DNA from: Membranipora membranacea | Taxonomy: Eukaryota > Bryozoa > Gymnolaemata > Cheilostomatida > Membraniporidae | Direction of reading: 5' to 3' | Assembly (NCBI GenBank): GCA_914767715.1 | Contig: OU612070.1 | Coordinates: 16,511,501 to 16,571,500 of the forward strand | DNA length: 60,000 bases | Shown: in pieces, positions 24-47,128 of the stretch | Position numbering within the stretch: position 1 is the first letter of the stretch | Layout: every line of letters starts with the position of its first letter | Notes under the pieces: generated by a model | What the model saw: only the letters and a program-made list of their open reading frames with translations | What the model was told of the DNA's origin: nothing | Database searches by the model: none | Position numbers and translations under genes: made by a program

Positions 24-2557
24 GTTGCAGGTCTTATGCAGCAATATGTTGAGCTTGAGGAAAATCTGAGAGAACTCAGAAATCAATCAAGAATTGAGGT
101 GATAAGTTTCCGTGATGATGAGATCGGAAGTCTCCTGGATAAGCTCAGCAGACAAGTAGCTAGGATCGATACCAGACTTTACACCTATCATGAGGTAGCT
201 ACTAGGTAGAATATCTATTCGGATCGGTTATCATCTTGTTTCATATTGCCATTGTTACGTTGATAAGTATCACTGAGACCTTCACCTGTAGCTGAAGAAG
301 TATTCCAAAATCCAATTTGTTTTGGCATAGAAATTAATTTTTCTGTTTCACATGCCTATGATTATAGCTTTAATGGCTCGATTGATCATGATTCAAAATG
401 AGCTGAATTTGCAAGTTGCCTGTTTTAGTCTGTCCTGTCGGCCTGTGGAGTTGCACTTTCCTATAATATAACCCCCTACAGTATTTGAAACGTATAAATA
501 TCTTTTCATGGTTTTTTTCCTGTGTATGTAATTGTCTTGTACTTGAGTAGGAGGTGGCTCAGTTGGTTAGTGTGCCGGTCCTTCAGCATGCAAGTGGTGA
601 AGGTTGTGGTTCAAATCCCACTGCAGTCCATCGACTAGTGGGGTTTTGTTGGGCCCCTGGTGCGCTCCGACCTGCCTGCAAACTTGGCGCAGACATTGCA
701 GCCTCGCCATTAAGGCAACTAATAATGGAATGTCTGAATCGTCTTCGTTCTGACCCCTCACTGATGTAAGCTCCATTCTCAGCCTTTCTTGTATTCTACC
801 AGGTAGATGTGGCAGGTGGATACAAAGAGACAGAGAAACTTATAAATGAACTGATGAATATGAAGATCCCTCAATATAAACCTTCATCTAATCATGTCCA
901 GCTCTCTGATACAGGTATTTAATATCTCCTGATTTAGTTATCAAAATCTCTATTCTATTCTTTATTACTGGAACACCGTAAATGTGCTGCTTTGTATCAC
1001 AATAACAGTTTCATATTTCGATTTTAAAACTTCTCTATCACTCAGAAACATCCTTCTTATCTCATTCGATATTATCTTACTGTACTGTAAATATAGAACA
1101 TTGCGTATGGGATAGATATTCATTGGATATTGTCCACCTTTCTTTGCCTACCTTCCCCTTGCTGCATGAATCACTGTAAGTTTTCAATTACTGTTATCAA
1201 TCTATCGCTGCTGACTCTGCGGAACGAAGCTACGTATGATTAAGCTGTTTTATTTTCAGATTGTGGTGATGTTCAGCTTGCTGTCGAGATAAAACAATCA
1301 TCTCGAATACTGGTGGATCTGCCCTTCTTAGCTTATAACAATCCTCCAACTTCTATGAAAATACTCAGTACTGTCCAACTCCCCTCCTGTGTCCACTCTG
1401 TTACTAAATACCAGAATTTAATTTATGCTGGTCTGGAAAATAGCAAACTCATGAGGGTCACTGAACCTGTTAATACCAGCTCACCGTCTGAGTTTGTGAA
1501 AAATGTTGGGGGGTATGTATCCAGTGCCCATGTTTATAATAATGAGCTGTATGTATTATCACAAAATGCCAGTAAGGTTTATGTGTATGACTTACAGGGT
1601 AAACTAAAGAGGTCCTGGTCCCATAACAGTAACAGTAATGGCTTTAATAAGCTCAGAGTAGTAAACGAGAAGGTGGTTGTCCCAGCTTCTCAATCTCTAA
1701 CCGTTTATACTCTTCAAGGTCAGCTAATAAAACAGATCATATGTCCTGATATGTCAACATACCATAAAGCATTAGCTGTATGCGGGGATGACTCTGTTAT
1801 CTTAACTGACTGTGGTACAAACAGTGTACTCAGAGTGAACCTAGACAGTGGGAAGGTGATGTGGACATCTAAACATGTAAACCAACCACTAGGAGTCGTC
1901 TGTTACAATGACAGATATGTACTCGTGTCAAACTATAACACAGAAACTAAGATATGGATACTGGATGTGGATACAGGTATATTCATAATATTTGCATGAT
2001 TTATATACACTTTATATATTGGTAAATGACAGAGCTATTATTTATTGGCATATCTTTTGTGCTCAATTAAATTTGTGAGAGAAACCAGTTCTATCTTGGC
2101 CCAACTGTTCCTTTCCTTCACTCAGCATTCAGTCAATGATAATGCGAGTTGGGATTTCTTCAGCTAAGGTTGTTTTGCGAAAAAAGATTATGATGTTGTA
2201 TCATCAATTAGTATGTAAATATATGATAAATTTTAGTTTGCTGATCAAGTTGTAGATTTGTATAACATGTATGATTAATATGGAATGCAAAATCATGGTC
2301 TACTCGCGGAATATACCACTGTCTAAATCCTGGCGTGTCTTGTGAACTTTTTTTAATGTTTTAATGAAACAGACAAAAAACTCCTTTATGTTGATTTCTT
2401 GTTGGATTTCCATTTTTCAGCTGAGAAAGTAGGTGAGCTCCGCGGCCAGACAGATGAGAGCTGTGATCACTTTGACCTGGATATTGATGGTGACACTCTT
2501 ATTATTGCTAAATACGATCTAAACTCAATACAGTGCTATGAGCTGATCACAGAATAG
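24..2557 (+). CDS. T1: TRIM-type RING/B-box beta-propeller protein, 3' part
   Basis: The 5' end lies outside the window. Exons present, joined by consensus GT/AG sites, are 24-194 (coiled coil), 803-914, 1260-1976 (most of the propeller) and 2421-2557 (last blade, stop TAG at 2555-2557). Phases are 0, 1, 1 and match the complete copies. The last coiled-coil exon carries QQYVELEENLRELRNQ. The propeller exon shows repeated strand pairs such as VHSVTKYQNLIYAG, VYNNELYVL and RYVLVSN, typical of a six-bladed NHL-like fold. The propeller exon is 6 bp shorter than in T2 (VVVPASQSL against VVVPDGATQSL). Exon 8 starts with A where the other copies have G. The frame is open. By family this would be the substrate-recognition half of a ubiquitin E3 ligase in the cytoplasm. 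Domain class is well supported; the target is unknown. Confidence 0.85.
551..775 (+). repeat. tRNA-derived SINE, family A, in T1 intron
   Basis: A pol III A box (TGGCTCAGTTGG) and B box (GGTTCAAATCC) are spaced as in a tRNA and followed by a non-tRNA body of about 150 bp. It lies in the intron between T1 coding exons 5 and 6 at the same site as in T2 and T4, so it predates those duplications. The acceptor stem does not pair convincingly, so this is a SINE head and not a tRNA gene. Its right end is not sharply defined. Confidence 0.8.
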
Positions 2558-4620
2558 GTAACTAGTGATCCACTCTGTTCTTGGTTCTCTCCATCAGTTC
2601 CGGTCAATGATATGAATTTATGGATCAGTGGTAAATTACATAGCTTGGCTATTAGTGGGAATATGCCATCCGTATAAAGCTTTGTGTCAGGGTCTAAAGA
2701 AAGCTATAAATCTGGAAGCTTTTACGTGATGCATTGATTGACGTCCCAGTAACGACATTCAAAAACTCAGGCAAGCTGCTTGACAGAAGTTTACAAGTGT
2801 CCGCTATTCTAGTTTCTGAACTTATGGACCAATCAGAGATTAATAATGCGGTCCAGCATACATGAATAGCCATACGCTGGCTCAGGGTCAGATATGTACT
2901 CCTCACCCATCCTCATATATCAGTGGATCTGGTTGTAATATAAGGTCTAGCGGTACAAGTTTGAAGGTGTGTTTTCCTCTACTGTTTTATCACCCATATT
3001 TCTCTCTGGCTCTCTGTTCATCCTCTTTTCTGAATGATGTTTTCCCGTGTCTTTATTAATAGATGAATCTTTAAAACACTATCCAAATCGCAAGTATGAA
3101 ATAAATAGGCAGTGCGAAATATGTTTTATAGTGAAAGGAGTTTTTTTGTAGTTTTTGAATACAAGCTTCAAATAACCGTTTTTTTTTGCTTTGTACAAGA
3201 TTATCTCTGTTTAATATTTTATATCCTTAATTACATTTTGATTTCGGGTGTTTCGTTGCCTTGCTCAATGTACAGATGATGATTTCTGTTGTCAGCTACC
3301 ATGTTTATTCTACATTATTAAAATCTATCCTAACAGGATTATTTCGAGCATGAGTTTTATTGGGATTAACCTAGTTCTCCAACTATTAACATATGGTCAG
3401 AGATCAAATACACTGAAGTTTAATATGGTTGCTGGTGGTTGCACACCATAATCAACCAGATAAACAAAAAAAAGATATATTTTCTATAAAATAACCACTC
3501 GATTTAATGTTAATCATTCTGATCAAGCCTCAAGAGGTGCGACTGATAAGTATCCAGTCATTCTACCTAAAAATGATGCTTCACCCATCTCCTGTCAATA
3601 TATGCTGACCCCCATGTCTCTACCGTATAAACATCTCCTCTATGGGCGATTGCTTCCTCTTCCATTCAGATAGGACGACTCTTATATTTTGTTTTGTAGC
3701 AGCTATCTTACTGGATTAGTTTTAATCACGTATGTTTATAGCCGTAAGTAGGATTCATTATCTCAAGATCCTTTTTAACAGAATTACAGAATCTTCACAC
3801 AGTGCTGTTGCCAAATCCAAACAGATGCGCTCTCTGCTTTATGCGGCTTGTTTGGGTTCTCAGCCTGCCAGCCCAACTTTAGTGAGCAAATTCACGGCAT
3901 AACGCTGCAAAAAACTCGCAATTACAACCTTGATCTTGGTATTATGTAATCAGATCATCATATCTAGTTAATTTCATCGGCATCATTACTTTTCTATGTC
4001 AGACATTCAAGTCTGGTCTTGGGTTTGTGATCACAATATGCTGTGTCATGCTGAGCTGCTCTGTGAGGTCACACCTCACCCAATACTACTATTCACTGCG
4101 CTGTTTTTCAACCCCTTTTTGTGCAAAAGCTCTTCAAAGGCTTTACCACCAGCACTGACGTATTCACACCTCTCCCATACATTTTTGCACAACACTTTCA
4201 GTACTTTATCATGCCTAAACATGTATCTATCGAGTCTGATTGAAAATTAGACAATGCATGCCGTAATGAGTTCAGATCTGTAAATGAGAGTGAAGGGCAG
4301 TATAACCTGACTGTACAGATTCCATATTGAGCTAAACTAGCATACGATATAACCAGATAGAGAGTCAGTAGCAACAAGGGCTGCATACAAATGTTGACGA
4401 ATCTTTACTTACATTGTCTGATAGATTATCTTGTTGGGTACACCAAGGAGTTAAAGACTTGTCTTAAACTCCTTGGGTACGCAGAGAGAACCTTTATAAG
4501 AAGTTTTTTCCTCAATGCGCGTGATAAGACAACTCAAAAATTATATTCGCCTATAACTTGTTTGAAATTTTGACTGCTCATCTCAAGACTATTTTTGTAA
4601 CTGAAAATATATCAGTTACA
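2558..4620. repeat. T 3' block, copy 1 (segmental duplication)
   Basis: This stretch follows the T1 stop and recurs after T2 and T4 in nearly the same form. It holds short open frames that look partly exonic but no convincing gene. A region near 3251-3451 reads as cysteine-rich (CTDDDFCCQLPC), and the probable splice acceptor before it (ttccag in the other copies) is ttcggg here. The candidate terminal exon seen at 17880-18004 is represented only by its last 63 bases (4267-4329), because about 310 bp are missing. A hairpin lies at 4437-4480 (arms ACCAAGGAGTT and AACTCCTTGGGT). Confidence 0.55.
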
Positions 4621-5355
4621 TCTCGCCATCTTTCCACCTCTGATTACCCAGTAAAATCGGCCTCGTACTATAGCCCAGTGTAAAAGTAACTTTACTTTAA
4701 GATCTGTATCTCAAACTAATTCAAGCTAAGTTAGTAGAAACAAAACTAATGTAAACCCCCCCCCCTCTCCTCAAAAAATAGCATACTGATTTTCCACTGC
4801 TGCTATCGGTGGAGTAATCCCACCATGTCCATACAGCTAGATCTCAAGTTAGCATGAAACCTGGGATAATTGTTTATTATGTTTTTTAATTATTTTTAAT
4901 TTTCTTTTATTTTTCAATTTTTTAAAATTTTTTTCAATTATATTTTATTTTCTTTTATTTTTTAAATGAATGAATGTTTTCAATATATTTATGAAGATTA
5001 ACAGGAGGAAGGGGCAGATCACACACTCTATACTAGTGATACGGAAAGAAAAAAGTGGAATAAACCAAGGTTGTCAAAGGACACAATATAACATAATCAG
5101 GCCTTGATATAAAGCAATGTCTTAAGCTATTGTTTTGACACTTGAATTTTTTGTCCACTTCACCATATCACAACATCGATCTCAGCCTGAGCTTTAGTTC
5201 CTGATAATAGAAACACAACTCAGATATAGAGTTAATCATCCTTGTGAGCCAATACGAGGATAAATATCCAAGTATTATCTGTAAAAAAGGTAGCCCATCA
5301 CATGAGAATTACCAAAGTATCAAACATGACATGACCTATATCATCACTACCATAA
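4621..5355. other. AT-rich non-coding tract
   Basis: No gene is seen. The stretch has a short poly-C run near 4756-4766 and a long T/A-rich low-complexity section near 4860-4980 made of TTTTATTTT-like runs. The same tract recurs at 18487-19240, 21985-22732 and 51060-51820, always to the left of an M gene. Confidence 0.6.
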
Positions 5356-5575
5356 TGTTGAGGTTGCTCAGTTGGTTAGAGCGGCGTTCTTCAGCGTGCA
5401 AGTGTTGAAGCCCTGGGATAGAATCCCACTGCAGTCCACTCACTACAAGGGTTGTTGGATACCAACCTGCCTTCAAACTGAGAGCAAAATTGGCGCAGAA
5501 ATTGCAGCCTTGCCCTTTCTCTTGACCCCCATCTAGCCATCCATTCTGGTGGTAAGTGACGAAACCATGTGATTT
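5356..5575 (+). repeat. tRNA-derived SINE, family B
   Basis: The A box (TTGCTCAGTTGGTTAGAGC) and a B-box-like GATAGAATCC (GGTTAGAATCC in the other copies) are followed by a body that shares the CCTGCCTTCAAACTGAGAG and TTGGCGCAGAAATTGCAGCC segments with family A. Family A and B are therefore related subfamilies. Copies of B lie at 19242, 22733 and 51819, each about 0.5 kb beyond the 3' end of an M gene. Confidence 0.75.
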
Positions 5576-5899
5576 TACCAAACATTTTCAACTAACATTT
5601 TTAATCAACATCAAACTTCCAACACAACAGCCCTCTTAAAAAGATAAATTCAATACATTGTTAACTATTGCGCATGGTTTTATATGAACGAGTGATAGAA
5701 CTCTCGTAACCTGTGACCAATATTAGCAAGATTCTCAATATGAATGAGAGGACACTTATGAAAAACATAAGTAGTATATGAAATAAAGCCTCTTCTAAAA
5801 ATAGAGAATGAGGCTAAATCTTATAATGGCGTTTTTCAAGAAGAGCTTACTTTTTGTAACAACGCTGAGTGAAAATAAAGTTTAAAACTGTAATAACTG
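5576..5899. other. 3' flank of M1, no gene seen
   Basis: About 320 bp of AT-rich sequence lies between the SINE and the M1 stop codon. On the minus strand this would be the M1 3' UTR and downstream region; TTTATTTT-type signals are present but no single polyadenylation site stands out. Confidence 0.4.
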
Positions 5900-6691
5900 C
5901 TACAATAGAGGCACACTTTTAGTTCTTTTCAGGCGGCTCAAATGAGGCCTCTGCTGGTTGTATGACTCCTCAAATCTTCGGACTGTCAGAGCCACACTGA
6001 CTCGTCGGGGATTATCTACTGGTGTATTGACAGGTGATGCTGAGCGAGCATCAGTATCATCAGTATGTGCCCCCCTGAGTCTTGCCCCCAGCCCGGCGGC
6101 CCCCCGTCCAGTCTCATCATTGTCCGTCAATGTTTCATCATCTGTTGGCTTGTTAACACACAAAGGGATTTCTTCGTATGTCGGTTCTTTAGTACTGGCT
6201 ATCGAAGAAAGGCTAATCTTCATGGAGAGACTTCCACTGGTACTAACTGGTAGGGCACTTTCTTCATCACTCTTTAATGAACCAGGTGTTGCGTATGAAC
6301 CAGGCTTTGAGTTGTCCGAGAAGCGATGACTATCTGCAAAGTACAAAGATCATGACAAGCTCACCGGTTTATAATTGTTTATAAGGTCCTGTTGACAAGC
6401 TACAGGGTTGGGGGTTGCTACGTTGGCTGTATGACCCGTTGGAAATTGTAACATAATTCTTTCTCTTACGTGGCGTGGCTTGTTTGATGTAATAAATAAC
6501 TACCTTTTTTTTATAGAAAGACATTAAATTAAATAATGGAGCCTCAATTTGAAGAGAATTTGTTGAAAACGGTTTGTTGATCTGTATAACGACCGTGGAC
6601 AATATCTCACCTTCAGTCCAATCTTCCGCCAGCTGGTTTGCGCGCCTCACCACAATAGGAGTGATAGATTGATTTGATGTTTCATAAAATT
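5900..6691 (-). pseudogene. M1: 3' half of M gene (exons 3-4 only)
   Basis: Exon 3 (6611-6691) and exon 4 (5900-6333) match M3 in phase and splice sites (acceptor cttccag, donor ggtgag, acceptor tttgcag), with a stop at 5900-5902. The frame is open and keeps TYEEIPL and the basic tail LKRTKS. Exons 1 and 2, which hold the start codon and polyproline run in M3, are absent: sequence to the right runs straight through the site where M3 has its 2.4 kb 5' segment. The copy therefore lacks its start and is probably non-functional unless another first exon is used. Confidence 0.65.
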
Positions 6692-6716
6692 CTGGAAGAG
6701 AATCAGAAGATGTCAT

Positions 6717-8209
6717 AACACTTCATTATTGGAACTTTGTTGCTTGACCGGGCATTGTGAAATCACCGCAAGGCACTCGGAAAGAGTTGCCTTTGGGTAG
6801 ACAACTCCCAGCTGCGAGCAACTAAATATGTGTGTATGCACATGGGTGTGCATGGTAGATTTGTCCCTAACTCCTTGATGAGAACGATGACCTTTGGTTT
6901 GGTGGCCCTTTCTTATATCATTGTAAAGCTCATAATCAGACTAAGGGAACCAAAGGGACCTTGCGTGCACCAAACTTGCCAACAACTATAATTTTATAAA
7001 AATTCCAGAATTCTTGGTTGACTATTGGGTAATTCCTTGCATAAAGCGGAAGCAGAAGAGCACAGGAGATAATGGGGCGATATGAGGCATGCCCAACAAA
7101 AATTGGGATAGGATATGATTTCTAAGCTTACAGCCTTTATACAGACTCCCATCAGCTTGCAAGTTTATAATTGAACAACAAGATGAAAGAGCAACATTTG
7201 TGAATCAATTTCTTCAGCCCTCATAATAGTAGAAATGAGAATGTGGGCCATTTGAAACAACCCGCTGAATAACAACATGAATTTAGAGTACTCTTATTAT
7301 TGGAAAAAGTAGAACATTTTATGGCTGCTGATTACCCAGTCTGCTGCATAGACTCACATCACAGAGTTAGTTAGTTATGATCATTTGCTGAGGTAGTATG
7401 GGTGATTTGTACCTCACAAATAGAGACATTGACATTCAGAAAATGGTATAACAGCACTCTTTGATCTGCTCTCTGGCAAATGTTGCTGAACTCGCTGACG
7501 CAGCATGTTGACGTAGGGCAGGGCGCATGCAGAAGTGTAGCGATGATTGTTAATAGTGAAATGGTCGATGACTGGGAAAAAACTGCTTATGTCTATAGTT
7601 TTTATGTTAGGGTATGTTATGTAATTATGTTTTGATTTTGGTGATTACTGCCAATCCTGTCATTGTCTAATTTTTGGTAATTATGCAAGACCCGCAAAAC
7701 AACACCCTAGATATTATTGTTCCCAGCAAGATATTCTGCTAACAATTATATCAACACATCGCGACTGCCTTGTGAGAATGGTGCCATCTGACAAACTGCC
7801 TGTCTATTAATTCGTTGAAATCTCTCTTTCCTCTCAGCAAATTGTCAATGCTGTCTGTTTTGACATCAACAGTCACTTCTGGCTAGAGAATAAAAACCTT
7901 AATGAAAACAAACGATTCTTAACTGAGAAACGTTTACTCGATGTTTTGTTGTTAATTCGGCATCATTCATTCAAAATAGCAGCACAACCTGAGTGATTTG
8001 CCTCCAACAATTGGTGTTGAAGTTTATCGGTAGAAGCAGCTGATAACTTTATCTCCGAAGTTGGAAGGCGCCAAGTTTTCTAGCCTCAGGCCCTAGCTGT
8101 CAGTTTAATCCGCACTCACAGCGTAATGATCGACCTTCTGAACCTGAATAATCTTATTTACTTCTATAATCCGTAGTTTTATGTTGGCATGATAATTTAT
8201 TTTTGACAG
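6717..8209. other. Spacer between M1 and S1
   Basis: No gene is recognised in about 1.5 kb. It carries one copy of the AGGGAACCAAAGGGACC segment that is duplicated around the 5' half of M3. No upstream half of the FN3 domain could be found here, so the S1 exons have no visible 5' partner in this block. Confidence 0.5.
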
Positions 8210-9618
<1,409 letters not shown>

Positions 9619-11336: not shown

Positions 11337-14300
11337 ATGATGGCAGAAGCAGAATCAAAAGAAGAAGGATTTCTAGAGTGTGGATTATGTTTTGAAAATG
11401 ATCCACTCAAGCGATTACCCTGCAATCCTGGTCACATATATTGTGTAACTTGTCTGACCAAAGTCTCCGAAGTGACTCAGATTATCAAATGTCCGCTGTG
11501 CAGGTAACCTATTGTGTTAACATAGTTGTGCTCATTGCATAGCTGCCCGCACATAATCAATAGTCGCCACTTGTCAAAACTGATAATCATGAGTTTAGGA
11601 CACAAATTGGAGATGGTATGACCAAGTAATAAAAAGGCATAATAACAAAGTTTTATCTAGTAAATGTGAATGCGAAACTCGGCCAAAGATGTAGAGGAAT
11701 TATCACCTCTCTCCGCTTTCACTCCTTGAATCAATTAATTATAGCACTGGTCTACTTCGGCACCCAAGAGTTGCAGATCCTGATTTCATATCTTTGACCT
11801 GCAACAAAGTCACAAGTAAAACTATTATCTTATTCTTGGGTTTATGTGCAGAAGACCAAATTTTTTCAAACTATGCTATTTCTGTACACAAGCAATGTTT
11901 GCCACATGCTGACTCTTGAAACGTCTTAGCGTCGTGAGCAGGAGATGCTTTAATTTGATAGAGCACCAGCAGTCGTCAGCGCACAAGTTCTCTTGCTGTC
12001 ACATCTCTTTGAAGTGCTCTGAACATTGGGCGTTGTTGAAGCCAACGATGTTACGTGAGAGATGGCAACAGGGGATGTGGTTGAAGATAGATTTGTTCAA
12101 GCGACAACTCATTCAAATACCTGATGATACATGCTGATGATTAATAGCACAACTTCAACCAGTTATGTTCTTGAAAGTGACTTGCACAATTATGCTTCAT
12201 TTTTAGAACTGTGTTTGATGAAGGTATAGATGACATCCCATCAGCAGGTGCTCCACTAGATAAGTTTCTGTGCTGTGATGTTTGTATGAGAAAAGATGAC
12301 AAGAGAAGACTGGCTCAGATTTACTGTGTGGTCTGCCAGAAAAAGTTTTGTACTCCTCATGAAAAGGTACAGATCATTTTCAAGATTTGAATGTATGCTA
12401 GACTGTCAAAGCAACCATAGTTTGGTAGGCGTACGCTCATTAGCCCGGGTACAATGTAATAATCTTCTTAGTATCATGCATTCTTGCTTATTGGTTGTAC
12501 ATATTCTATAACAATTGTTGTGAAGCGTAAGCCGCACTACCATGATGCTGTTTTCAAATAGTTTATTTTCCTTCTATCAAAGAGTCATAACGATGCACTG
12601 GATGACCACATGCGTATCAGAATGGATGAGTATAAGAAAGATTGGAGAAAAATGGAGACAAGATTCTGTGAGAAACACTCAAAGAAACCCTACTCCATAA
12701 CTTGTGTGAAATGCCCCAGATTATTTTGTGCGGATTGTATAGACCAATTGGAAACCTGCTCTGATGGTTAGTAGCCAGAATCATTTATCTCAGATACGTC
12801 ACAACCTTCCTTCTTGTCTTAAAGTAAACCCCAAGTCATATTATCCAAAATATCAAAGCAGTGCAATCTTCTAAATTATTATTTGATAAACCGATATATT
12901 GTAATAAACGACAGTAACCTTCTGGCACCTCCCCATATTTGGTACTATTTGAAAGATATCAGTTTGAGTCTTTGTCTCTAAGCCTGGAATGAAGTACCCT
13001 CTCCATGTATATTTTGATAAATATCTTATATAGGTGACAGGCACGAGCTGAAGTCAATATCAAACATGGTCGCAAAGCTCATCGACATGGTAAATGAGAA
13101 GAAGGTATGGATATTCGATAAGGAGGAGCACCTGTTAGGAATGTCTAAACAGCTGAGAGCTGTCATATCAGACTGGGATACAGAAACTCAAGAGTTGGTT
13201 GACAAGCTACATAACGCCAGAGATAAACAAGTATGTAGAATTCTATGACAAACATTTCCGGATGCAGGAGGACAGCTCCTAGTTATACGTTGTTACTAGT
13301 CGGACCGATCATATAGCAGTTATTATGGATTTGATTCTTATGGAACATGTAGCAATAGGATAGGAGCATAGGAGCATAATGTTCTTACTTCGACTAGGTT
13401 ATTATAAAGAAAACTTGATAGCTGTGATTGAGCTCACAAGCTAGAACACAGAATAAAACAATTAAAATGTGGAAAGGGAGTCTTATAGTAATTAATTAGT
13501 AAAATTAATGTGTTGATACAGATCTAATATAGAATCAACGAAGGATGATCACATCAGGTACAAGCGATTCATATCCTTTCACATTTACTTTTAGGTTGCA
13601 GGTCTTATGCAGCAATATGTTGAGCTTGAGGAACATCTGATAGAACTCAGAAATCAATCTAGAATTGAGGTGACAAGTTTCCTGGATGATGAGATCGGAA
13701 GTCTCCTGGATAAGCTCAGCAGACAAGTAGCTAGGATCGATACCAGACTTTACACCTATCATGAGGTAGCTACTAGGTAGAATATCTATTCGGATCGGTT
13801 ATCATCTTGTTTCATATTGCCATTGTTACGTTGATAAGTGTCACTGAGACCTTCACCTGTCGCTGAAGAAGTAATCGAAAATCCAATTTGTTTTGGCATA
13901 GAAATTAATTTTTTTGTTTCACATGCCTATGATTATAGCTTTAATGGCTCGATTGATCATGATTCAAAATGAGCTGAATTTGCAAGTTGCCTGTTTTAGT
14001 CTGTCCTGTCGGCCTGTGGAGTTGCACTTTCCTATAATATAACCCCTACAGTATTTGAAACGTATAAATATCTTTGCATGGTTTTTTTCCTGTGTATGTA
14101 ATTGTCTTGTACTTGAGTAGGAGGTGGCTCAGTTGGTTAGAGTGCCGGTCCTTCAGCATGCAAGTGGTGAAGGTCGTGGTTCAAATCCCACTGCGGTCCA
14201 TCGACTAGTGGGGTTTTGTTGGGCCCCTGGTGTGCTCCGACCTGCCTGCAAACTTGGCGCAGACATTGCAGCCTCGCCATTAAGGCAACTAATAATGGAA

Positions 14301-16102
14301 TGTCTGAATCGTCTTCGTTCTGACCCCTCACTGATGTAAGCTCCATTCTCAGCCTTTCTTGTATTCTACCAGGTAGATGTGGCAGATGGATACAAAGAGA
14401 CAGAGAAACTTATAAATGAACTGATGAATATGAAGATCCCTCAATATAAACCTTCATCTAATCATGTCCAGCTCTCTGATACAGGTATTTAATATCTCCT
14501 GATTTAGTTATCAAAATCTCTATTCTATTCTTTATTACTGGAACACCGTAAATTTGCTGCTTTGTATCACGTTATCATAGTTTCATATTTCGATATTAAA
14601 ACTTCTTTATCACTCAGAATCATCCTTCTTATCTTATTCATTATTATCCTCCTGTACTGTAAATATAGAACAATTCGTATTGGATAACTATTTACCAGAT
14701 GTTGTCCATTTTCCTTTACCTACCTCCCCTTGCTGCATGAATTGCTGTTGTCAATTACTGTTATCAATCCATCGCTACTAACTCTGCGGAATGAAGCTAT
14801 GAATGATGTGTCTGATTTCATTTTCAGATTGTTGCGATGTTCAGCTTGCTGTCGAGATAACACAATCATCCCGAATTCTGGTGGATCTGCCCCTCTTAGC
14901 CAATCATGATCCTCCAACTTCTATGAAAATACTCAGTACTGTCCAACTCCCCTCCCGTGTCCACTCTGTCACTAAATACCAGAATCTAATTTATGCTGGT
15001 CTGGAAAATAACAAACTCATGAGGGTCACTGAACCTGTTAATACCAGCTCACCGTCTGAGTTTGTGAAAAATGTTGGGGGTTTTGTATCCAGTGCCCATG
15101 TGTATAATAATGAGCTGTATGTATTATCACATAATGCCAGTAAGGTTTATGTGTATGACTTAAATGGTAAACTAAAGAGGTCCTGGTCCCATAACAGTAA
15201 CAGTGGTAACTTTAGTAAGCTTAGAGTAGTAAATGAGAAGGTGGTTGTTCCAGATGGAGCTACTCAATCTCTAACCGTTTATACTCTTCAAGGTCAGCTT
15301 ATAAAACAGATCAAATGTCCTGGTATGTCAACACACTATAAAGCATTAGCTGTATGCGGAGATGACTCTGTTATCTTTACTGACTGTGGTACAAACAGTG
15401 TACTCAGAGTGAACCTAGACAGTGGGAAGGTGATGTGGACATCTAAACATGTAAACCAGCCACAAGGCGTCGTCTGCTACAAGGACAGATACGTACTCGT
15501 GTCAAACTGTAACACAGAAACTACGATATGGATGCTGGATGTGGATACAGGTATATTCATAATATTTGCATTATTTATATACATTTTGTACAATGGTAAA
15601 TGACAGAGCTATTATTTATTGCGACCTCTCTTTTGCTCAATTAAATTTGTGAGAGAAACAAGTTCTATCTTGGCCTAACTTTTCCTGTCCTTCACTCAAC
15701 CAAGGGTCTCTAACTCCTTGACTCAACATTCAGTCAATGATCATGCGAATTAGGATTTCTTCAGCTAAGGTTGTTTTGATATAAAGATTATGATATTGTA
15801 TCATCGGTTATTATATAAATATGTGTCAAATTTTATTTTGCCGATCAACTTGTGGAGTATGTCACTGTCTTAATCCTGGCTTTACTTGTGAAACAGAAAA
15901 ATATTCCTAAAATAGACACTGATTTCTCCTTTATTTTGATTTCTCAATGAATTTTTATTTTACAGGTGAGAAAGTTGGTGAGCTCTGCGGCCAGACAGGG
16001 GGGAGATGTCATCACTTTGACCTGGATATTGATGGTGACACTCTTATTATTGCTAAATACAATCTACACTCAATACAGTGCTATGAGCTGATCACAGAAT
16101 AG
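11337..16102 (+). CDS. T2: complete TRIM-type RING/B-box beta-propeller protein
   Basis: Eight coding exons join in frame to 616 aa: 11337-11503, 12207-12366, 12583-12766, 13034-13230, 13595-13765, 14373-14484, 14828-15550 and 15966-16102. Residues 15-55 form a C3HC4 RING (C15, C18, C29, H33, C36, C39, C52, C55). Residues 78-107 form B-box 1 (C79, C82, C96, C99, C104, H107). Residues 138-161 form B-box 2 (C138, H141, C150, C153, C158, C161). A coiled coil follows (about 172-325), then a six-bladed NHL-like propeller (about 331-616). The start is the first of two ATGs, three bases after CGC, close to an acceptor-like TTTTTAG, so a non-coding first exon is likely. The layout matches TRIM proteins with an NHL-type C-terminus; the expected role is a ubiquitin E3 ligase whose propeller binds target protein or RNA. 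Confidence 0.88.
14121..14345 (+). repeat. tRNA-derived SINE, family A, in T2 intron
   Basis: The A box TGGCTCAGTTGGTTAGAG and B box GGTTCAAATCC are intact, making this the best-preserved pol III promoter among the family A copies. It lies in the intron before coding exon 6, at the same site as the T1 copy. Confidence 0.8.
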
Positions 16103-20578: not shown

Positions 20579-20660
20579 CTGGAAGAGAATCAGAAGATGT
20601 CATAACACTTCATTATTGGAACTTTGTTGCTTGACCGGGCATTGTGAAATCACCGCAAGG

Positions 20661-28050: not shown

Positions 28051-29444
<1,394 letters not shown>

Positions 29445-31063: not shown

Positions 31064-31183
31064 TACCATGGACATGGAAAAAATACAGGCTTGCAAGCCC
31101 CTGCGGCACATGTTTGCTTCCATAGCTGACAGCCAGTGGAGAAAAACATGATTTCCTTGATATATTTTTAGGTCCCGCAAAAG

Positions 31184-34100
31184 ATGGCAGCAGCAGAATC
31201 AAAAGAAGAAGGATTTCTAGAGTGTGGATTATGTTTTGAAAATGATCCACTCAAGCGATTACCCTGCAATCCTGGTCACATATATTGTGTAACTTGTCTG
31301 ACCAAAGACTCCGAAGTGACTCAGATTATCAAATGTCCGCTGTGCAGGTAACCTATTGTGTTAACATGGTTGTGCTCATTGCATAGCTGCACGCACCTAA
31401 TCAATAGCTGCCACTTATCAAAACTGATAATCATGAGTTTAGGACAAAAATTGGAGATGGTACAACCAAGGAATAAAAAGGCATAACAACTAAGTTTTAT
31501 CTAGTAAATGTGAATACGAAGCTTGGCCAAAAATTTAGAGGAATTATCACCTCTCCCCGCTTTCTCGTTGAATCAATTAATTGGGGCACTGGTCTAGTTC
31601 GGCACACAAGAGTTGCAGATCCTAGTTATCATATCTTTGACCTGCAAAAAAGTTAGAAGTAAAACTATTATCTCATTCTTGGGTTTATGTGCAGAAGACC
31701 AAAATTTTTAAAACTATGCTATTTCTGCACAGTAAGCAATGTTTGCCACATGCTGACTCTTGAAACGTCTTAGCGATGTGGGTAGGAGATGCTTTAAATT
31801 GATAGAGCACCAGCAGTCGTCAGCGCACAAGTCCTCTTGCTGTCACATCTCTTGCTGTCACATCTCTATGAAATGCTCTGAACATCGGGCGTTGTTGAAG
31901 CCACTGATGTTACGTAAGAGATGGCAACAGGGGATGTGGTGGAAGATAGATTTGTTCAAGCGACAACTCATTCAAATACCTGATGATACATGATGATGAT
32001 TAATAGCACAACTTCAACCAGTTATGTTCTTGAAAGTGACTAGCACAATTATGCTTCATTTTTAGAACTGTGTTCGATGAAGGTATAGATGACATCCCAT
32101 CAGCAGGTGCTCCACTAGATAAGTTTCTGTGCTGTGATGTTTGTATGAGAAAAAATGACAAGAGAAGACTGGCTCAGATTTACTGTGTGGTCTGCCAAAA
32201 AAAGTTTTGTACTCCTCATGAAAAGGTACAGATCATTTTCAAGATTTGAATGTATGCTAGACTGTCAAAGCAATCATACACTCATAAACAAGCATAAATG
32301 AAATACCTCTGCTGGTGGCCATTTGTTGTATTCATTGAACTTTGTTGACACCCTAAAAGTCATGCCTATGAATTCTCACCCCATAGTTTGGTAGGCGTAC
32401 GCTCATTAGCCCGGGTACAATGTAATAATCTTCTTAGTATCATGCATTCTTGCTTATTGGTTGTACATATTCTATAATAATTGTTGTGAAGCGTAAGCCG
32501 CACTACCATGATGCTGTTTTCAAATAGTTTATCTTCCTTCTATCAAAGAGTCATAACGATGCACTGGATGACCACATGCGTATCAGAATGGATGAGTATA
32601 AGAAAGATTGGAGAAAAGTGGAGACAAGATACTGTGAGAAACACTCAAAGAAACCCTACTCCATAACTTGTGTAAAATGCCCCAGATTATTTTGTGGGGA
32701 TTGTTTCGACCAATTGGAAACCTGCTCTGATGGTTAGTGGGTAGAATCATTTATCTCAGATACGGAACAAACTTCCTTCTTGTCTTGAAATAAACCCAAG
32801 TCATATAATCAAAAATATCGGAGCAGTGTAATTTTCTAAATTAATATTTGATAAACCGATATATATTGTAATAAATGACAGTAAACTTCTTACACCTCCC
32901 CATATTTGGTACTATTTGAAAGCTCTCAGTTTAAGTCTTTGTCTCTGAGCCTGGAATGAAGTACCCTCTCCATGTATATTTTGATAAATATCTTATATAG
33001 GTGACAGGCACGAGCTGAGGTCAATATCAAACGTGGTTGCAAAGCTAATCGAGATGGTTAATGAGAAGACGGTATGGATCTTTGATAAGGAGGAGCACCT
33101 GTTAGGAATGTCCAAACAGCTGACAGCTGTCATATCAGACTGGGATACAGAAACTCAAGAGTTGATTGACAAGCTACATAACGCCAGAGATAAACAAGTA
33201 TGTAGAATTCTATGACAAACATTTCCGGGTGCAGGAGGACAGCTCCTAGTTATACGTTGTTACTAGTCAGACCGATCATATAGCAGTTATTATGGATTTG
33301 ATTCTTAGGGAACATAGTAGCAATAGGATAGGAGCATAGGAGCATAATGCGATTCATATCCTTTCACATTTGCTTTTAGGTTGCAGGTCTTATGCAGCAA
33401 TATGTTGAGCTTGAGGAACATCTGATAGAACTCAGAAATCAATCCAGAATTGAGGTGACAAGTTTCCTGGATGATGAGATCGGAAGTCTCCTGGATAAGC
33501 TCAGCAGACAAGTAGCTAGGATCGATACCAGACTTTTCACCTATCATGAGGTAGCTACTAGGTAGAATATCTATTCGGATTGGCTATCATCTTGTTTCAT
33601 ATTGCCATCGTTACCCTGAAATATATCACTGAGACCTTCATCTGTAGCTGAAAAAGTATTCGAAAATCCAATTTGTTTTGGCATAGAAAATAATTTTTCA
33701 GTTTCATACTCCCATGATTATAGCTTTAATGGCTCGATTGGTCATGATTCAAAATGAGCTGAATTTGCAAGTTGCCTGTTTTAGTCTGTCCTTTAAGTCC
33801 TGGGCTGTGGAGTTGCACTATCCTATAATATAACCCCCTACAGGGGTTTGGTTGGGCCCCCTGGTGTGCTCCAACCTGCCTGCAAACAGAGAGTAACTTG
33901 GCGCAAACATTGCAGCCTCGCCATTAAGGCAACTTACCGATTAAGCTTCGTTCTCAGCCATTCTTACATTCTACCAGGTTGATGTGGCAGATGGATACAA
34001 AGAGACAGAGAAACTTGTAGAAGAACTGATGAATATGAAGATCCCTCAATATAAACCTTCATCAAATCCTGTCCAGCTCTCTGATAACGGTATCTCCTGA

Positions 34101-35733
34101 TTTATTTATCAAAAATCTCTATTCTTTTCTATTCTATATTATTGAAACACCGTAAATGTACTGCTTCGTATCACGATAACAGTTTCATAATTTGAAATTT
34201 AAACTTCTTTATCACTCAGTAACATCTTTCTTATCTCGTTCAATATTATCTTACTGTACTGTAAATGTAGAGCATTTTGTATGGGAAAGGTTTTCATCGG
34301 ATATTGTCCATCTTTCTTTACCTACCTCCCCTTGCTGCATGAATCACTGTTGTCAATTAATGTTATCAATCCATCGCTGCTAACTTTGCGGAATGAAGCT
34401 ATAAATGATGTGTCTGATTTCATTTTCAGATTGTTGCGATGTTAAGCTTGCTGTCGAGATAACACAATCATCTCGCCAGCAGATGGATCTGCCCCTCTTA
34501 GCCAATCACGATCCTCCGACTTCTATGAAAATACTCAGTACTGTCACACTCCCCTCCTTTGTCCACTCTGTTACTAAATACCAGAATTTAATTTATGCTG
34601 GTCTGGGAAATAGCAAACTCATGAGGGTCACTGAACCTGTTAATACCAGCTCACCGTCTGAGTTTGTGAATGTTGGGGGTTATGTATCCAGTGCACAAGT
34701 ATACAATAATGAGCTATATGTGTTATCACATACTACCAGTAAGGTTTATGTGTATGACTTAGATGGTAAACTAAAGAGGTCCTGGTCCCATAACAGTAAC
34801 AGTAGTAACTTTAATAAGCTCAGAGTAGTAAACGAGAAGGTGGTTGTCCCAGATGGAGCTATTCAATCTCTAACCGTTTATACTCTTCAAGGTCAGCTTA
34901 TAAAACAGATCAAATGTCCTGGTATGTCAACCTACTGGAAATCATTAGCTGTATGTGGAGATAACTCTGTTATCTTATCTGACTGGGGTACAAACAGTGT
35001 ACTCAGAGTGAACATAGACAGTGGAGAGGTGATGTGGACATCTAACCATGTAATCCAGCCACAAGGCGTCGTCTGCTACAAGGACCGATATGTACTCGTG
35101 TCAAACAATAACGCAGAAACTAAGATATGGATGCTGGATGTGGATACAGGTATATTCATAATATTTGCATGATTTATATACACTTTGTATATGGGTAAAT
35201 AACAGAGCTATTATTTATTGCGACCTCTTTTGTGCTCAATTAAATTTGTGAGAGAAACCAGTTCTATCTTGGCCTAACTGTTCCTATCCTTCATTCAACA
35301 TTCAGTCATTGATAATGCGAGTTGGGATTTCCTCAGCTATGGTAGTTTTGCGAAAAAAGATTATGATATTGTATCATCAAATTTTTAGTATGTAAATACA
35401 TGATCAATTTTAGTTTGTTGATCAAGTTGTAGATTTGTGTAACATGTATGACTAATATGGAATGCAAAATCATGGTCTACTCGCGGAATATACCACTGTC
35501 TAAATCCTGGCGTGTCTTGTGAACTTTTTTCAATGTTGTAATGAAACAGCCAAAAAGTCCTTTATGTTGATTTCTCATTGGATTTCCATTTTTCAGGTGA
35601 GAAAGTTGGTGAGCTCCGCGGCCAGACAGGGAGGAACTGTAGTCATTTTGACCTGGATATTGATGGTGACACTCTTATTATTGCTAAATGCGATCTAAAG
35701 TCAATACAGTGCTATGAGCTGATCACAGAATAG
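31184..35733 (+). CDS. T3: complete TRIM-type RING/B-box beta-propeller protein
   Basis: Eight exons encode 614 aa: 31184-31347, 32066-32225, 32549-32732, 33001-33197, 33380-33550, 33978-34089, 34430-35149 and 35597-35733. The first of the two ATGs found in T2 is changed to AAG, so this copy starts one codon later (MAAAESKEEG). All RING and B-box metal ligands are kept; B-box 2 reads FCGDCFDQ. The propeller differs from T2 mainly at loop sites, for example STYWKS against STHYKA, SDWGTNS against TDCGTNS, and GRNCSHF against GGRCHHF. Introns before exons 5 and 6 are shorter than in T2. In the latter the SINE head is deleted. The downstream block is heavily reduced. Confidence 0.87.
33835..33960 (+). 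repeat. Truncated SINE, family A, lacking its tRNA head
   Basis: Only the body remains (from TTTGGTTGGGCC). It joins directly to CCCCTACAGGGG, so about 300 bp including both pol III boxes are gone. It keeps AACAGAGAGTAACTTGGCGC, a segment like that of family B and missing from the other family A copies, which suggests an older body sequence. Confidence 0.65.
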
Positions 35734-36372
<639 letters not shown>

Positions 36373-42259: not shown

Positions 42260-45200
42260 ATGATGGCAGAAGCAGAATCAGAATCAAAAGAAGAAGGATT
42301 TCTAGAGTGTGGATTATGTTTTGAAAATGATCCGCTCAAGCGATTACCCTGCAATCCTGGTCACATATATTGTGTAACTTGTCTGACCAAAGACTCCGAA
42401 GTGACTCAGATTATCAAATGTCCGCTGTGCAGGTAACCTATTGTGTTAACATAGTTGTGCTCATTGCATAGCTGCACGCACATAATCAATAGTCGCCACT
42501 TGTCAAAACTGATAATCATGAGTTAAGGACACAAATTGGAGATAGTACAAGCAAGGAATAAAAAGGCATAACAACAAAGTTTTATCTAGTAAATGCGAAA
42601 ATGAAGCTTGGCCAAAGATTTAGAGGAATTATCACCTCTCTCCGCTTTCACTCCTTGAATCAATTAATTAGGGCACTGGTCTACTTCGGCACACAAGAGT
42701 TGCAGATCCTGATTTCATTTCTTTGACCTGCAACAAGTCACAAGTAAAACTATTATCTTATTCTTAGGTTTGTCTTCAGAAGACCCAATATTATACAACT
42801 ATAATATTTCTGCACACAAGCCATGTTTGCCACATGCTGACTCTTGAAACGTCTTAGCGTCGTGGGTAGGAGATGCTTTAAGTTGATAGAGCACCAGCAG
42901 TCGTCAGCGCACAAGTTCTCTTGCTGTCACATCTCTATGAAGATATGGCAACAAGGGATGTGGTGGAAGATAGATTTGTTCAAGCGACAACTCATTCAAA
43001 TACCTGATGATACACGATGATGAATAATAGCACAACTTCAACCAGTTATGTTCTTGAAAGTGACTAGCACAATTATGCTTCATTTTTAGAACTGTGTTCG
43101 ATGAAGGTATAGATGACATCCCATCAGCAGGTGCTCCACTAGATAAGTTTCTGTGCTGTGATGTTTGTATGAGAAAAGATGACAAGAGAAGACTGGCTCA
43201 GATTTACTGTGTGGTCTGCCAAAAAAAGTTTTGTACTCCTCACGAAAAGGTACAGATCATTTTCAAGATTTGAACAGGGTTGGGGCTTGAATGTACACTA
43301 GACTGTCAGTGGCAAAGTAAACTCACTCTCACAAACAAGCATACATGAAATACCTCTGCTGGTGGCCATTTGTTGTATTCATTGGACTTTGTTGACACCC
43401 TAAAAGCCATACCTATAAATCCTCATCCATAGTTTGGTAGGCTTATGCTCTTTAGCCTAGGTACAACGTAATAATTTTGCTGGTATCATGCATTTCGCTT
43501 TTCTGCTTTCTATAACAATTGTTGTGAAGCATAAGCCGCACTACCAAATAGTTTTTTTTCTTCTTTCAAAGAGTCATAACGATGCACTGGATGACCACAT
43601 GCGTATTAGAATGGATGAGTATAAGAAATATTGGAGAAAAATGGAGATAAGATACTGTGAGAAACACTCAAAGAAACCCTACTCCATAACTTGTGTGAAA
43701 TGCCCCAGATTATTTTGTCTGGATTGTATCGATCAATTAGAAACTTGCTCTGGTGGTAAGTAGGTAGCATCATTTACATGTATATCAGATACAACACAAC
43801 CTTCCTCCTTGTCTTAAAGTAAACCCTAAGTTATATCATCCAAAATATCAGAGCAGTGCAAACTTCTAAATTATTATTTGATAAACCGATATATTGTAAT
43901 AAACGACAGTAAACTTCTGACACCTCCCAATATTTGGTATTATTTAAAAGATATCAGTTTGAGTGTTTGTCTCTAAGCCTGGAATGAAGTACCCTCTCCA
44001 TGTATATTTTGATAAATATCTTAAATAGGTGACAGACACGAGCTGAGGTCAATATCAAACATGGTCGCAAAGCTCATCGACATGGTTAATGAGAAGAAGG
44101 TATGGATATTCGATAAGGAGGAGCACCTGTTAGGAATGTCTAAACAGCTGACAGCTGTCATATCAGACTGGGATACAGAACCTCAAGAGTTGGTTGACAA
44201 GCTACATAACGCCAGAGATAAACAAGTATATAGAATTCTATGACAAACATTTCCGGGTGCAGGAGGACAGCTCCTAGTTATACGTTGTTACTAGTCAGAC
44301 CGATCATATAGCAGTTATTATGGATTTGATTCTTAGGGAACATAGTAGCAATAGGATAGGAGCATAGGAGCATAATGTTCTTACTTCGACTAGGTTATTA
44401 TAAAGAAAACTTGGTAACTGTGATTGAGCTCACAAGCTAGAACACAGAATAAAACAATTAAAGTGTGGAAAGGGAGTCTTATAGTAATTGATTAATAAAA
44501 TTAATGTGTTGATACAGATCTAATATAGAATCAACAAAGGCTGATCACATCAGGTACAGGTACAAGCGATTCATATCCTTTCACATTTACTTTTAGGTTG
44601 CAGGTCTTATGCAGCAATATGTTGAGCTTGAGGAAAATCTGAGAGAACTCAGAAATCAATCCAGAATTGAGGTGACAAGTTTCCTGGATGATGAGATCGG
44701 AAGTCTCCTGGATAAGCTCAGCAGACAAGTAGCTAGGATAGATACCCGACTTTACACCTATCATGAGGTACCTACTAGGTAGAATATCTATTCGGATCGG
44801 TTATCATCTTGTTTCATATTGCCATTGTTACGTTGATAAGTATCACTGAGACCTTCACCTGTAGCTGAAGAAGTAATCGAAAATCCAATTTGTTTTGGCA
44901 TAGAAATTAATTTTTCTGTTTCACATGCCTATGATTATAGCTTTAATGGCTCGATTGATCACGATTCAAAATGAGCTGAATTTGCAAGTTGCCTGTTTTA
45001 GTCTGTCCTGTCGGCCTGTGGAGTTGCACTTTCCTATAATATAACCCCTACAGTATTTGAAACGTATAAATATATTTTCATGGTTTTTTTCCTGTGTATG
45101 TGATTGTCTTGTACTTGAGTAGGAGGTGGCTCAGTTGGTTAGAGTGCCGGTCCTTCAGCATGCAAGTGGTGAAGGGCGTGGTTCAAATCCCACTGCGGTC

Positions 45201-47128
45201 CATCGACTAGTGGGGTTTTGTTGGGCCCCTGGTGTGCTCCGACCTGCCTGCAAACTTGGCGCAGACATTGCAGCCTCGCCATTAAGGCAACTAATAATGG
45301 AATGTCTGAATCGTCTTCGTTCTGACCCCTCACTGATGTAAGCTCCATTCTCAGCCTTTCTTGTATTCTACCAGGTAGATGTGGCAGATGGATACAAAGA
45401 GACAGAGAAACTTATAAATGAACTGATGATTATGAAGATCCCTCAATATAAACCTTCATCTAATCATGTCCAGCTCTCTGATACAGGTATTTAATATCTC
45501 CTGATTTAGTTATCAAAATCTATATTCTATTCTTTATTACTGGAACACCGTAAATGTGCTGCTTTGTATCACGTTAACAGTTTCATATTTCGATTTTAAA
45601 ACTTCTTTATCACTCAGAAACATCCTTCTTATCTCGTTCATTATTATCATACTGTACTGTAAATATAGAACATTTCGTATTGGATAACTATTTACCGGAT
45701 GTTGTCCATTTTTCTTTACCTACCTCCCCTTGCCGCATGGATCACTGTTGTCAATTACTGTTATCAATCCATCGCTGCTAACTCTGCGGAATGAAGCTAT
45801 GAATGATGTTTCTGATTTCATTTTTAGATTGTTGCGATGTTCAGCCTGCTGTCAAGATAATACAATCATCTCGACAGCTGATGGATCTGCCCCTCTTAGC
45901 TTATAACAATCCTCCGACTTCTATGAAACCACTCAGTACTGTCCAACTCTCCTCCTTTGTCCACTCTGTTACTAAATACCAGAATTCAATTTATGCTGGT
46001 CTGGAAAATAGCAAGCTCATGAGGGTCACAGAACCTGCTAATACCGGCTCCCCGACTGAGTTTGTGAATGTTGGGGGTTATGTATCTAGTGCACAAGTGT
46101 ATAATAATGAGCTATATGTATTATCACATAATGCCAGAAAGGTTTATGTGTATGACTTACAGGGTAAACTAAAGAGGTCCTGGTCCCATAACAGTAACAG
46201 TAGTATCTTTAATAAGCTCAGAGTAGTAAACGAGAAGGTGGTTGTCCCAGATGGAGCTTCTCAATCTCTAACTGTTTATACTCTTCAAGGTCAGCTTATA
46301 AAACAGATCAAATGTCCTGGTATGTCAACAAACGATAAAGCATTAGCTGTATGCGGAGATGACTCTGTTATCTTAACTGACCGAGTTACAAACAGTGTAC
46401 TCAGAGTGAACCTAGACAGTGGGAAGGTGATGTGGACATCTAAACATGTAATCCAGCCACAAGGCGTCGTCTGCTACAAGGACAGATACGTACTCGTGTC
46501 AAACTGTAACACAGAAACTACGATATGGATGCTGGATGTGGATACAGGTATATTCATAATACTTGCATGATTTACATACACTTTATATATTGGTAAATGA
46601 CAGAGCTATAATTTATTGGTATATCTTTTGTGCTCAATTAAATTTGTGAGAGAAACCCGTTCTATTTTGGCCCAACTGTTCCTTTCCTTCACTCAGCATT
46701 CAGTCAATGATAATGCGAGTTGGGATTTCTTCAGCTAAGGTTGTTTTGCGAAAAAAGATTATGATATTGTATCATCAATTAGTATGTAAATATATGATAA
46801 ATTTTAGTTTGCTGATCAAGTTGTAGATTTGTATAACATGTATGACTAATATGGAATGCAAAATCATGGTCTACTCGCGGAATATACCACTGTCTAAATC
46901 CTGGCGTGTCTTGTGAACTTTTTTTAATGTTTTAATGAAACAGACAAAAAACTCCTTTATGTTGATTTCTCGTTGGATTTCCATTTTTCAGGTAAGAAAG
47001 TAGGTGAGCTCTGCGGCCAGACAGATTGGAGCTGTTATCACTTTGACCTGGATATTGATGGTGACACTCTTATTATTGCTAAATACACTCTAAAGTCAAT
47101 ACAGTGCTATGAGCTGATCACAGAATAG
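42260..47128 (+). CDS. T4: complete TRIM-type RING/B-box beta-propeller protein
   Basis: Eight exons encode 617 aa: 42260-42432, 43090-43249, 43572-43755, 44029-44225, 44597-44767, 45375-45486, 45828-46547 and 46992-47128. The N-terminus has a duplicated Glu-Ser (AESESKEEG), the only length change in the RING exon. RING, both B-boxes and the coiled coil are otherwise like T2. Propeller loop sites differ: STNDKA, TDRVTNS, GQTDWSCYHF and AKYTLKS. The first bases of exon 8 read GTAAGA, which itself resembles a donor site directly after the acceptor CAG. The gene sits between a 4.2 kb transposon region and the 3' block. Confidence 0.88.
45123..45345 (+). repeat. tRNA-derived SINE, family A, in T4 intron
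   Basis: A and B boxes are intact, and the insertion site is the same as in T1 and T2. Confidence 0.8.

Follow-up and report, generated by a model that had tools for sequence, protein, structure and literature searches.

Why do neighbouring copies of one gene differ from each other at corresponding loops of successive propeller blades, and is selection responsible? This question is raised by a stretch of 60,000 nucleotides from the bryozoan Membranipora membranacea (contig OU612070.1, named C6 below, positions 16511501-16571500; hereafter, the window), whose genome comprises 339 Mb in 18 contigs. The window harbors five plus-strand copies, T1 to T5, that are members of a large family, tandemly amplified in this animal, encoding a putative RING, B-boxes and coiled coil (together, RBCC) and a propeller. 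T2 (11337..16102) is a complete gene of eight exons, delimited by blastn, a Pfam scan, exon borders and an open frame. The other copies were delimited by blastn, borders and open frame. T3 (31181..35733; starting at the second ATG of T2) and T4 (42260..47128) are complete. T1 (25..2557; blastn to T2 exons) comprises exons 5-8, encoding the putative coiled coil and the propeller, its exons 1-4 lying before the window. T5 (58013..59991) is limited to exons 1-4, and the exon 7 that follows downstream (locus L004), 1.6 kb beyond the window, is taken as that of T5. Exons 7-8 are carried by T1-T4 and are open in all four. Our analysis shows that several gene clusters of this family are under positive selection at matching sites, concentrated on one face of the modelled propeller.

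In an AlphaFold2 model with four-strand blades (predicted local distance difference test, pLDDT, 76.2; predicted template modelling score, pTM, 0.77), exon 7 of T2 (14828..15550, plus strand) encodes a linker of 34 codons, then a first strand that is read as closing blade 6, followed by blades 1-4 and the first three strands (A-C) of blade 5. Exon 8 (15966..16102, plus strand) completes blade 5 with its strand D and adds blade 6, ending at the stop codon; its classes were assigned by repeat register only. Structural classes were set blind to variability, from the model where exon 7 is concerned, and exon 8 and the first strand (codons 35-40) were classified manually according to the repeat register. 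In a propeller, the D-A and B-C loops lie on one face, called the top here.

The original prediction, made from the letters of the window alone, was that T1, T2, T3 and T4 differ at the same loop sites blade after blade, and all the residues that it gave were recovered: S-x-VHSV (C, R, F, F), SNS-xx-F (NG, GN, SN, SI), MST-xx-K (YH, HY, YW, ND), TD-xx-TN (CG, CG, WG, RV, with SD in T3), HV-x-QP (N, N, I, I), GQT-xxx-C-x-HF (DES/D, GGR/H, GRN/S, DWS/Y) and AK-xx-L-x-SI (YD/N, YN/H, CD/K, YT/K). This list is incomplete, since the B-C loops of blade 2 (codons 101-104) and blade 3 (codon 145, with an indel of two codons at 142-143) and codon 85 also vary. Overall, 28 of the 66 top-loop codons are variable at the amino-acid level compared with 21/184 for the remaining propeller codons (Fisher p 3e-7) and 7/42 for the loops of the opposite face (p 0.006). 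By class, variable codons amount to 15/42 in D-A loops, 13/24 in B-C loops, 2/15 in A-B loops, 5/27 in C-D loops, 14/142 in strands and 13/34 in the linker. The framework is almost unchanged in its strands, as predicted, but variation is also seen at individual positions of strands and bottom loops (e.g. 112) and in the linker. Codons with at least three residues are found at 12/66 top positions versus 2/184 elsewhere, whereas synonymous variation has no such bias (6/66 versus 22/184, p 0.65). Furthermore, the count of 28 is not equalled at any other offset of the class mask along the propeller, the next best being 26 at a shift of one. Mapped on the predicted structure, the variable sites are concentrated on one face rather than scattered over both.

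Codon models and the M1a and M2a site models were run with our own code, not with PAML or FUBAR, and site posteriors are naive empirical Bayes values. In T1-T4, the ratio of nonsynonymous to synonymous rates (dN/dS, or omega) is 1.68-1.79 in the top loops over three topologies, above 1 (p 0.009-0.019) as expected under the diversifying selection that had been proposed. Omega of the rest is 0.33-0.35, equality of top and rest is rejected (likelihood-ratio test statistic, LRT, 47-50) and M2a beats M1a (LRT 24-28). Pairwise dN/dS over the whole exon 7 stays below 1 (0.47-0.79), only the top class exceeding this value, and is at least 0.97 for exon 8. The ratio of top-loop dN to the dS of the propeller is 1.72 (1.02-2.87). 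The proposed comparison with introns agrees: mean top-loop dN is 1.9 times the mean intron divergence (1.28-2.64), or 1.55 times (1.06-2.07) when multi-nucleotide changes are counted once.

The same pattern is found in larger sets of copies from several clusters. A search of the genome with exon 7 of T2 gave at least 151 matches, a lower bound since 150 of 398 candidates were scored, in clusters on C6, C2, C11, C10, C7, C8 and other contigs. Seventy loci were taken, of which 66 were placed in six groups, L059-L062 being left out as single or very divergent. Excluded before the tests on C6, C2 and C11 were four copies with a stop in exon 7 (L017, L030, L048, L051), one with a broken frame in exon 8 (L020) and four duplicates whose codons are identical to those of another copy (L008, L013, L016, L037); the C11 group includes L042, which is located on C2. 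With 5/66 grouped copies broken, turnover in the family includes pseudogenes.

Omega of top loops, rest and linker is 2.16, 0.43 and 0.99 in C6 (n=16; top equal to 1 rejected with p 1e-10; M2a LRT 159.5), 1.46, 0.34 and 0.32 in C2 (n=14; p 1e-4; LRT 148.0) and 2.35, 0.40 and 0.33 in C11 (n=9; p 3e-8; LRT 102.6). The loops of the opposite face have an omega of 0.31-0.37 in these three clusters. Tree-free ratios of top-loop dN to dS are 1.87 [1.24-2.84] in C6, 2.38 [1.53-3.73] in C11 and 1.72 [1.14-2.67] in C10 (n=5). Each of the clusters C6 (support 0.79), C11, C10 and C7 is a clade; because C2 fails to exclude C6, these two clusters are not independent. The linker, with an omega of about 1.5 in T1-T4 but the lower values given above in the clusters, was dropped as a part of the selected surface.

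The selected sites define a ring of hot spots. Posteriors above 0.9 were obtained for 23 sites in C6 (19 of them top), 18 in C2 (13 top) and 14 in C11 (12 top), a minority thus lying outside the top loops (e.g. 112, 247). When the propeller sites are ranked by variability (mean of C6, C2 and C11), 19 of the first 20 and 25 of the first 30 are in top loops. The ranking of top-class variability is common to the clusters (rho 0.50 for C6-C2, 0.67 for C6-C11, 0.77 for C2-C11; 0.24-0.77 over all 15 group pairs), and the autocorrelation of entropy peaks at a lag of 42-43 codons, i.e. one blade (r 0.37-0.41). Each blade gives one D-A and one B-C hot spot. In T2 (plus strand), those of blade 1 are codons 42-45, in the D-A loop into this blade and the start of strand A (14953..14964), and codons 59-61 in the B-C loop (15004..15012). 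Those of blade 2 are codon 85 in the D-A loop (15082..15084; posterior above 0.9 in C6, C2 and C11) and codons 101-104 in the B-C loop (15130..15141). Blade 3 has codons 126-127 (D-A, 15205..15210) and a weaker B-C hot spot at codons 144-145 (15259..15264), of which 145 was found in C6 and 144 is among the 30 most variable sites. In blade 4, the hot spots are codons 169-170 (D-A, 15334..15339) and codon 186 (B-C, 15385..15387; in C6 and C11); in blade 5, codons 209-210 (D-A, 15454..15459) and 227-229 (B-C, 15508..15516); and in blade 6, codons 251-255 (D-A, 15998..16012) and 271-274, in the B-C loop and the first residue of strand C (16058..16069). The pairs 43/45, 210/212 and 227/229 flank a fixed residue (44, 211 and 228, with zero entropy in C6, C2 and C11). 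Pairing is less clean elsewhere: the position between 253 and 255 has an entropy of 1.29, and 85/87 are not paired around a fixed residue. At 23 hot-spot positions that we chose, the residues are mainly N, S, H, Y and D, and nearly every copy has its own combination (16/16, 14/14, 9/9, 5/5 and 7/8 distinct strings after removal of identical sequences).

The variable propeller had been opposed to a fixed RING/B-box part. For exons 1-4 taken together this part is indeed conserved (omega 0.35 in the window copies), but T1 cannot be judged, since it has no exons 1-4 in the window, and the RING exon by itself varies too little for a usable rate (four sequences; omega 1.02, p 0.98 against 1). Exons 5-6 have an omega of 0.37 (p 0.056 against 1) in T1-T4; the pairwise blocks of exons 3 and 5 include two and three codons, respectively, that are now read as intron. 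In the clusters, omega is 0.27 for exons 2-4 of C6 (n=10: six fetched copies plus T2-T5) and, for exons 5-6, 0.52 in C6 (p 0.056, n=17), 0.19 in C2 (n=12) and 0.17 in C11 (n=8). The B-box/coiled-coil exons and the framework strands are under purifying selection. Exons 4-6, which encode the putative coiled coil after the B-boxes, are conserved, and exons 5 and 6 are found beside exon 7 in 20/21 and 21/21 cases in C6, 15/16 and 15/16 in C2, and 10/11 and 10/11 in C11. By eye, T2 has the Cys/His spacing of a RING (C-x2-C ... C-x3-H-x2-C-x2-C ... C-x2-C) and a first Cys/His-rich box in exon 2. The exon borders of T2 read AG/GT, and the other copies agree over the eight flanking bases shown.

The C-terminal part is modelled as a six-bladed propeller related to NHL domains, the sixth blade being set by register. 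The best Foldseek matches of the T2 model are BRAT (1.1e-10) and TRIM3 (3.9e-10), and the 50 matches listed in a VIA-align fold comparison are WD40, YncE and other propellers. Since fold comparison mixes NHL, WD40 and YncE propellers, the fold alone is not decisive, and the link to TRIM-NHL proteins is carried by the sequence profile, whose best solved matches are BRAT (2.3e-8), Mei-P26 (5.4e-5), TRIM3 (8.2e-5) and TRIM2 (6e-4). The Pfam NHL repeat is not among the seven families matching T2 exon 7, nor among the matches listed (25 of 31 families) for 19 members, the remaining six families matching at most one member each; PQQ_2 matched 19/19 members. When the propeller region of T2 was compared with a protein database, none of the 1242 candidates reached E 0.001, giving no named relatives. 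T2 has no Pfam match to filamin or SPRY, the PRY matches of the window being separate neighbouring exons, and neither HET nor NACHT is among the ten Pfam families matching T2 at E up to 1.

Residues F916, N933 and R875 contact RNA in Drosophila BRAT, according to the available part of PMC13245067. F916 aligns with codon 210 and R875 with codon 171, beside the hot spot 169-170, and N933 falls at codon 227, the residue just past the aligned block. With F916 and N933 on hot spots and R875 adjacent to one, hypervariable positions coincide with, or adjoin, the ligand positions of a relative. The contact residues are not kept in T2, which has Lys 171, Gln 210 and Cys 227. Since these positions are not conserved for RNA, a different ligand, probably a protein, would be expected.

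How the variants arise can be read from the divergence along the genes, which is strongly uneven. T2 and T3 diverge by 0.074, 0.005 and 0.097 in introns 1-3, and T1 and T4 by 0.017, 0.103 and 0.021 in introns 5-7; intron 7 of T2 is about 0.21 from that of each other copy, a value that may partly reflect poor alignment (up to 33% in windows) and was not relied on. L002 and L003, 179 kb apart, have one mismatch over their first 2.25 kb, including exon 7, then 16, 6 and 16 per 250 nucleotides, then no good alignment; this abrupt divergence is a recombination border. Four pairs of copies are identical in exons 7 and 8, with two to nine differences over 3.7 kb. These identical pairs and the uneven divergence indicate that tandem duplication and recombination between copies are recent. 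In a test of incompatibility, compatibility is higher between near sites than between distant ones when all codons are used (p 0.001 in 3/3 clusters), and in 2/3 clusters outside the top codons (C11, p 0.10). Hence, the copies are recombinant mosaics. In L033 and L039, one of six pairs profiled, the exon-7 bins have 35, 26 and 19 differences per about 250 nucleotides, more than all 12 other bins (0-16). An exon 7 more diverged than its flanks is the reverse of the usual pattern.

We give a probability of about 0.7 to the reading of this family as a recognition repertoire, in which a hypervariable top face would feed a constant ubiquitin-ligase-type module. The top face would be the ligand-binding surface and each copy may bind a different, probably protein, ligand, which the constant N-terminal module would ubiquitinate or from which it would signal. 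The sources of new specificities would be tandem duplication, hot-spot changes and block recombination between copies. The pressure might come from fast-changing foreign or selfish proteins, a step of which we are less sure than of the repertoire as a whole. Several results weigh against this reading. The tree-free ratio in C2 has an interval that includes 1 (1.26 [0.88-1.79]), and in C7 (n=8, older copies, dS 0.42) it is 0.68 [0.46-0.98], an exception that may reflect saturation, an older episode or a different regime. In T1-T4, the ratio of top-loop dN to dS falls to 1.48 (0.91-2.46) when multi-nucleotide changes are counted once, and the selection models of C6, C2 and C11 are without recombination. 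Moreover, the model of the T2 propeller is one of exon 7 only, of moderate confidence and built from four close sequences, and the Pfam matches of T2 to RING (zf-RING_2, E 5e-4; zf-RING_5, 8e-4) and B-box (zf-B_box, E 0.0085, residues 136-163) are all under the curated cut-offs.

Loops in general tolerate change, so the top loops might be merely relaxed, with no selection for difference. The ratios of C7 and C2 just given would fit such relaxation, and we simulated it in 160 data sets with top loops at omega 1 on mosaic trees. At least 28 variable top codons were obtained in 110/160 (mean 29.5), so the bare count in T1-T4 is no evidence of selection, a further point against the recognition repertoire, and omega of the top loops reached 1.68 in 5/160 and 1.79 in 2/160. 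However, 12 or more top codons with three residues were obtained in 2/160, and an M2a LRT of at least 23.8 in 0/160: the excess of T1-T4 over relaxed loops is repeated change at the same codons, not the number of variable codons. Relaxation is also at odds with top-loop omegas above 1 in T1-T4, C6, C2 and C11, with the constraint on opposite-face loops in these three clusters, with the fixed residues 44, 211 and 228 between hot spots and with the exon-7 bins of L033 and L039 (one of six pairs), and we regard it as very improbable. The signal might also be a statistical artefact, created among paralogues by recombination, by gene conversion or by multi-nucleotide mutation; this too seems quite improbable to us. 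Recombination is real in this family, and multi-nucleotide differences affect 12/28 variable top codons versus 4/21 elsewhere in T1-T4; yet a double-substitution parameter leaves omega of the top loops at 1.71-1.80 (p 0.019-0.031) and M2a significant (p <3e-5), the mosaic simulations fail to give the M2a signal, and the concentration on one face and its recurrence in other clusters are independent of any tree.

Two other explanations differ from the recognition repertoire only in the foreign or selfish step, so that their odds overlap with it. Copies could have acquired new functions towards different endogenous targets, such as RNAs or developmental substrates, a possibility to be taken seriously although we hold it for rather doubtful. 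RNA is bound through this face in BRAT and Mei-P26, the closest relatives by sequence that have a solved structure, and fast evolution of RNA recognition is ascribed to the NHL domain (available part of PMC5908797). However, of the three positions that contact RNA in BRAT, two rank with the most variable ones here and the place of R875 is a Lys in T2, between hot spots; besides, a near-unique hot-spot string in each copy and very recent duplicates suit an arms race better than stable roles. A function in mating, allorecognition or gamete self/non-self recognition, as for the fungal HET-D/HET-E proteins, appears unlikely: HET and NACHT domains, which mark that family, have no match in T2, and the RBCC module suggests cytosolic ligase work. 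What speaks for it is that the selected loop classes are the same as in HET-E (available part of PMC1805685).

The window also contains other repeated sequences. Between the T copies, exons matching PRY are found on the same strand at 8526-9410, 28436-29400 and 55093-55977 (two of them, when scanned, gave E 3e-6 and 5e-6), each preceded by an FN3-like exon recognised by eye; we take them to resemble TRIM9-type 3' exons. The amplified unit would thus hold two TRIM-type genes or gene pieces. Moreover, a block present in four copies with 94-96% identity (4619-7108, 18482-20664, 21979-24222, 51055-53568) contains a minus-strand open frame (5900-6346, 19866-20234), possibly exons of a minus-strand gene, with no Pfam match above chance in the one copy scanned. 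Similar tRNA-like stretches (TCAGTTGGTTAGAG...) occur at about 14120-14200, 19240-19320 and 22730-22810, in an intron and in spacers; by eye, they look like a short interspersed nuclear element (SINE).

How invertebrates, which have no antibodies, recognise fast-changing intracellular molecules is largely an open question. It becomes testable in a family that combines a fixed module of the ubiquitin-ligase type with a clearly delimited hypervariable surface and that offers natural variants by the dozen; the hot spots name the residues to swap and point to the assay to be read. We lean slightly towards a fuller picture: an animal TRIM-NHL-like scaffold with an inherited repertoire of perhaps more than 100 intracellular recognition ubiquitin ligases. 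Their paratope would comprise about a dozen sites in a ring, each blade contributing one D-A and one B-C site. Such a repertoire would be convergent with fungal HET propellers, with tandem duplication and the exchange of blocks between copies renewing it.

Among known systems, TRIM subfamily C (TRIM-NHL) includes TRIM2, TRIM3, TRIM32, TRIM45, TRIM56, TRIM71, Mei-P26, Brat and others (available part of PMC3503706). The present family shares with it the predicted order of RING, B-boxes, coiled coil and propeller and, by profile, its best solved matches. The lack of an NHL-repeat match in Pfam, in T2 and among the matches listed for 19 members, is much like the case of TRIM56 in the accessible text of PMC2533329. 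In the same text, the only TRIM expansion in fly, worm and Ciona is a filamin-related subgroup, and neither it nor the available part of PMC3503706 describes positive selection on a TRIM propeller. The bryozoan genes differ from TRIM-NHL proteins by their strong tandem amplification, by the hypervariability of the face that BRAT uses for RNA and, in T2, by the lack of a filamin match. Fish finTRIM and other B30.2/SPRY repertoires are amplified TRIM sets like the present one, and changed selective regimes and loops are known for finTRIM. Their recognition domain is however B30.2/SPRY and not a propeller. Tandem expansions of animal TRIM genes in general, and the fast amplification of SPRY TRIMs in fish, are mentioned in the available part of PMC3503706. 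Nematode and plant F-box/MATH adapters are also large E3 adapter families with positive selection in the substrate-binding domain; unlike the bryozoan genes, they belong to multi-subunit ligases and have no RBCC module.

A close parallel is that of the HET-D/HET-E/NWD WD40 propellers of the fungus Podospora anserina, in which the available part of PMC1805685 describes selected residue pairs in the D-A loop and the b-c turn of every repeat, an interaction platform on the top and exchange between family members. Here too, selection is concentrated in the D-A and B-C loops, blade after blade, and the pairs 43/45, 210/212 and 227/229 straddle a fixed residue. There are also differences: the fungal proteins are of the NOD-like receptor (NLR) type and have near-identical WD40 repeats that swap units, whereas we describe an animal RBCC family with a propeller near TRIM-NHL, diverged blades and tandem copies of whole genes. 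No report of such a pattern in animal TRIM-NHL-like genes was found in our searches of open-licence literature. As far as these searches reach, the principle is known from fungal HET propellers and its variant in an animal RBCC family is new. The bryozoan family also suggests that fungi and animals, starting from different propellers, recruited equivalent loop positions for hypervariable recognition.

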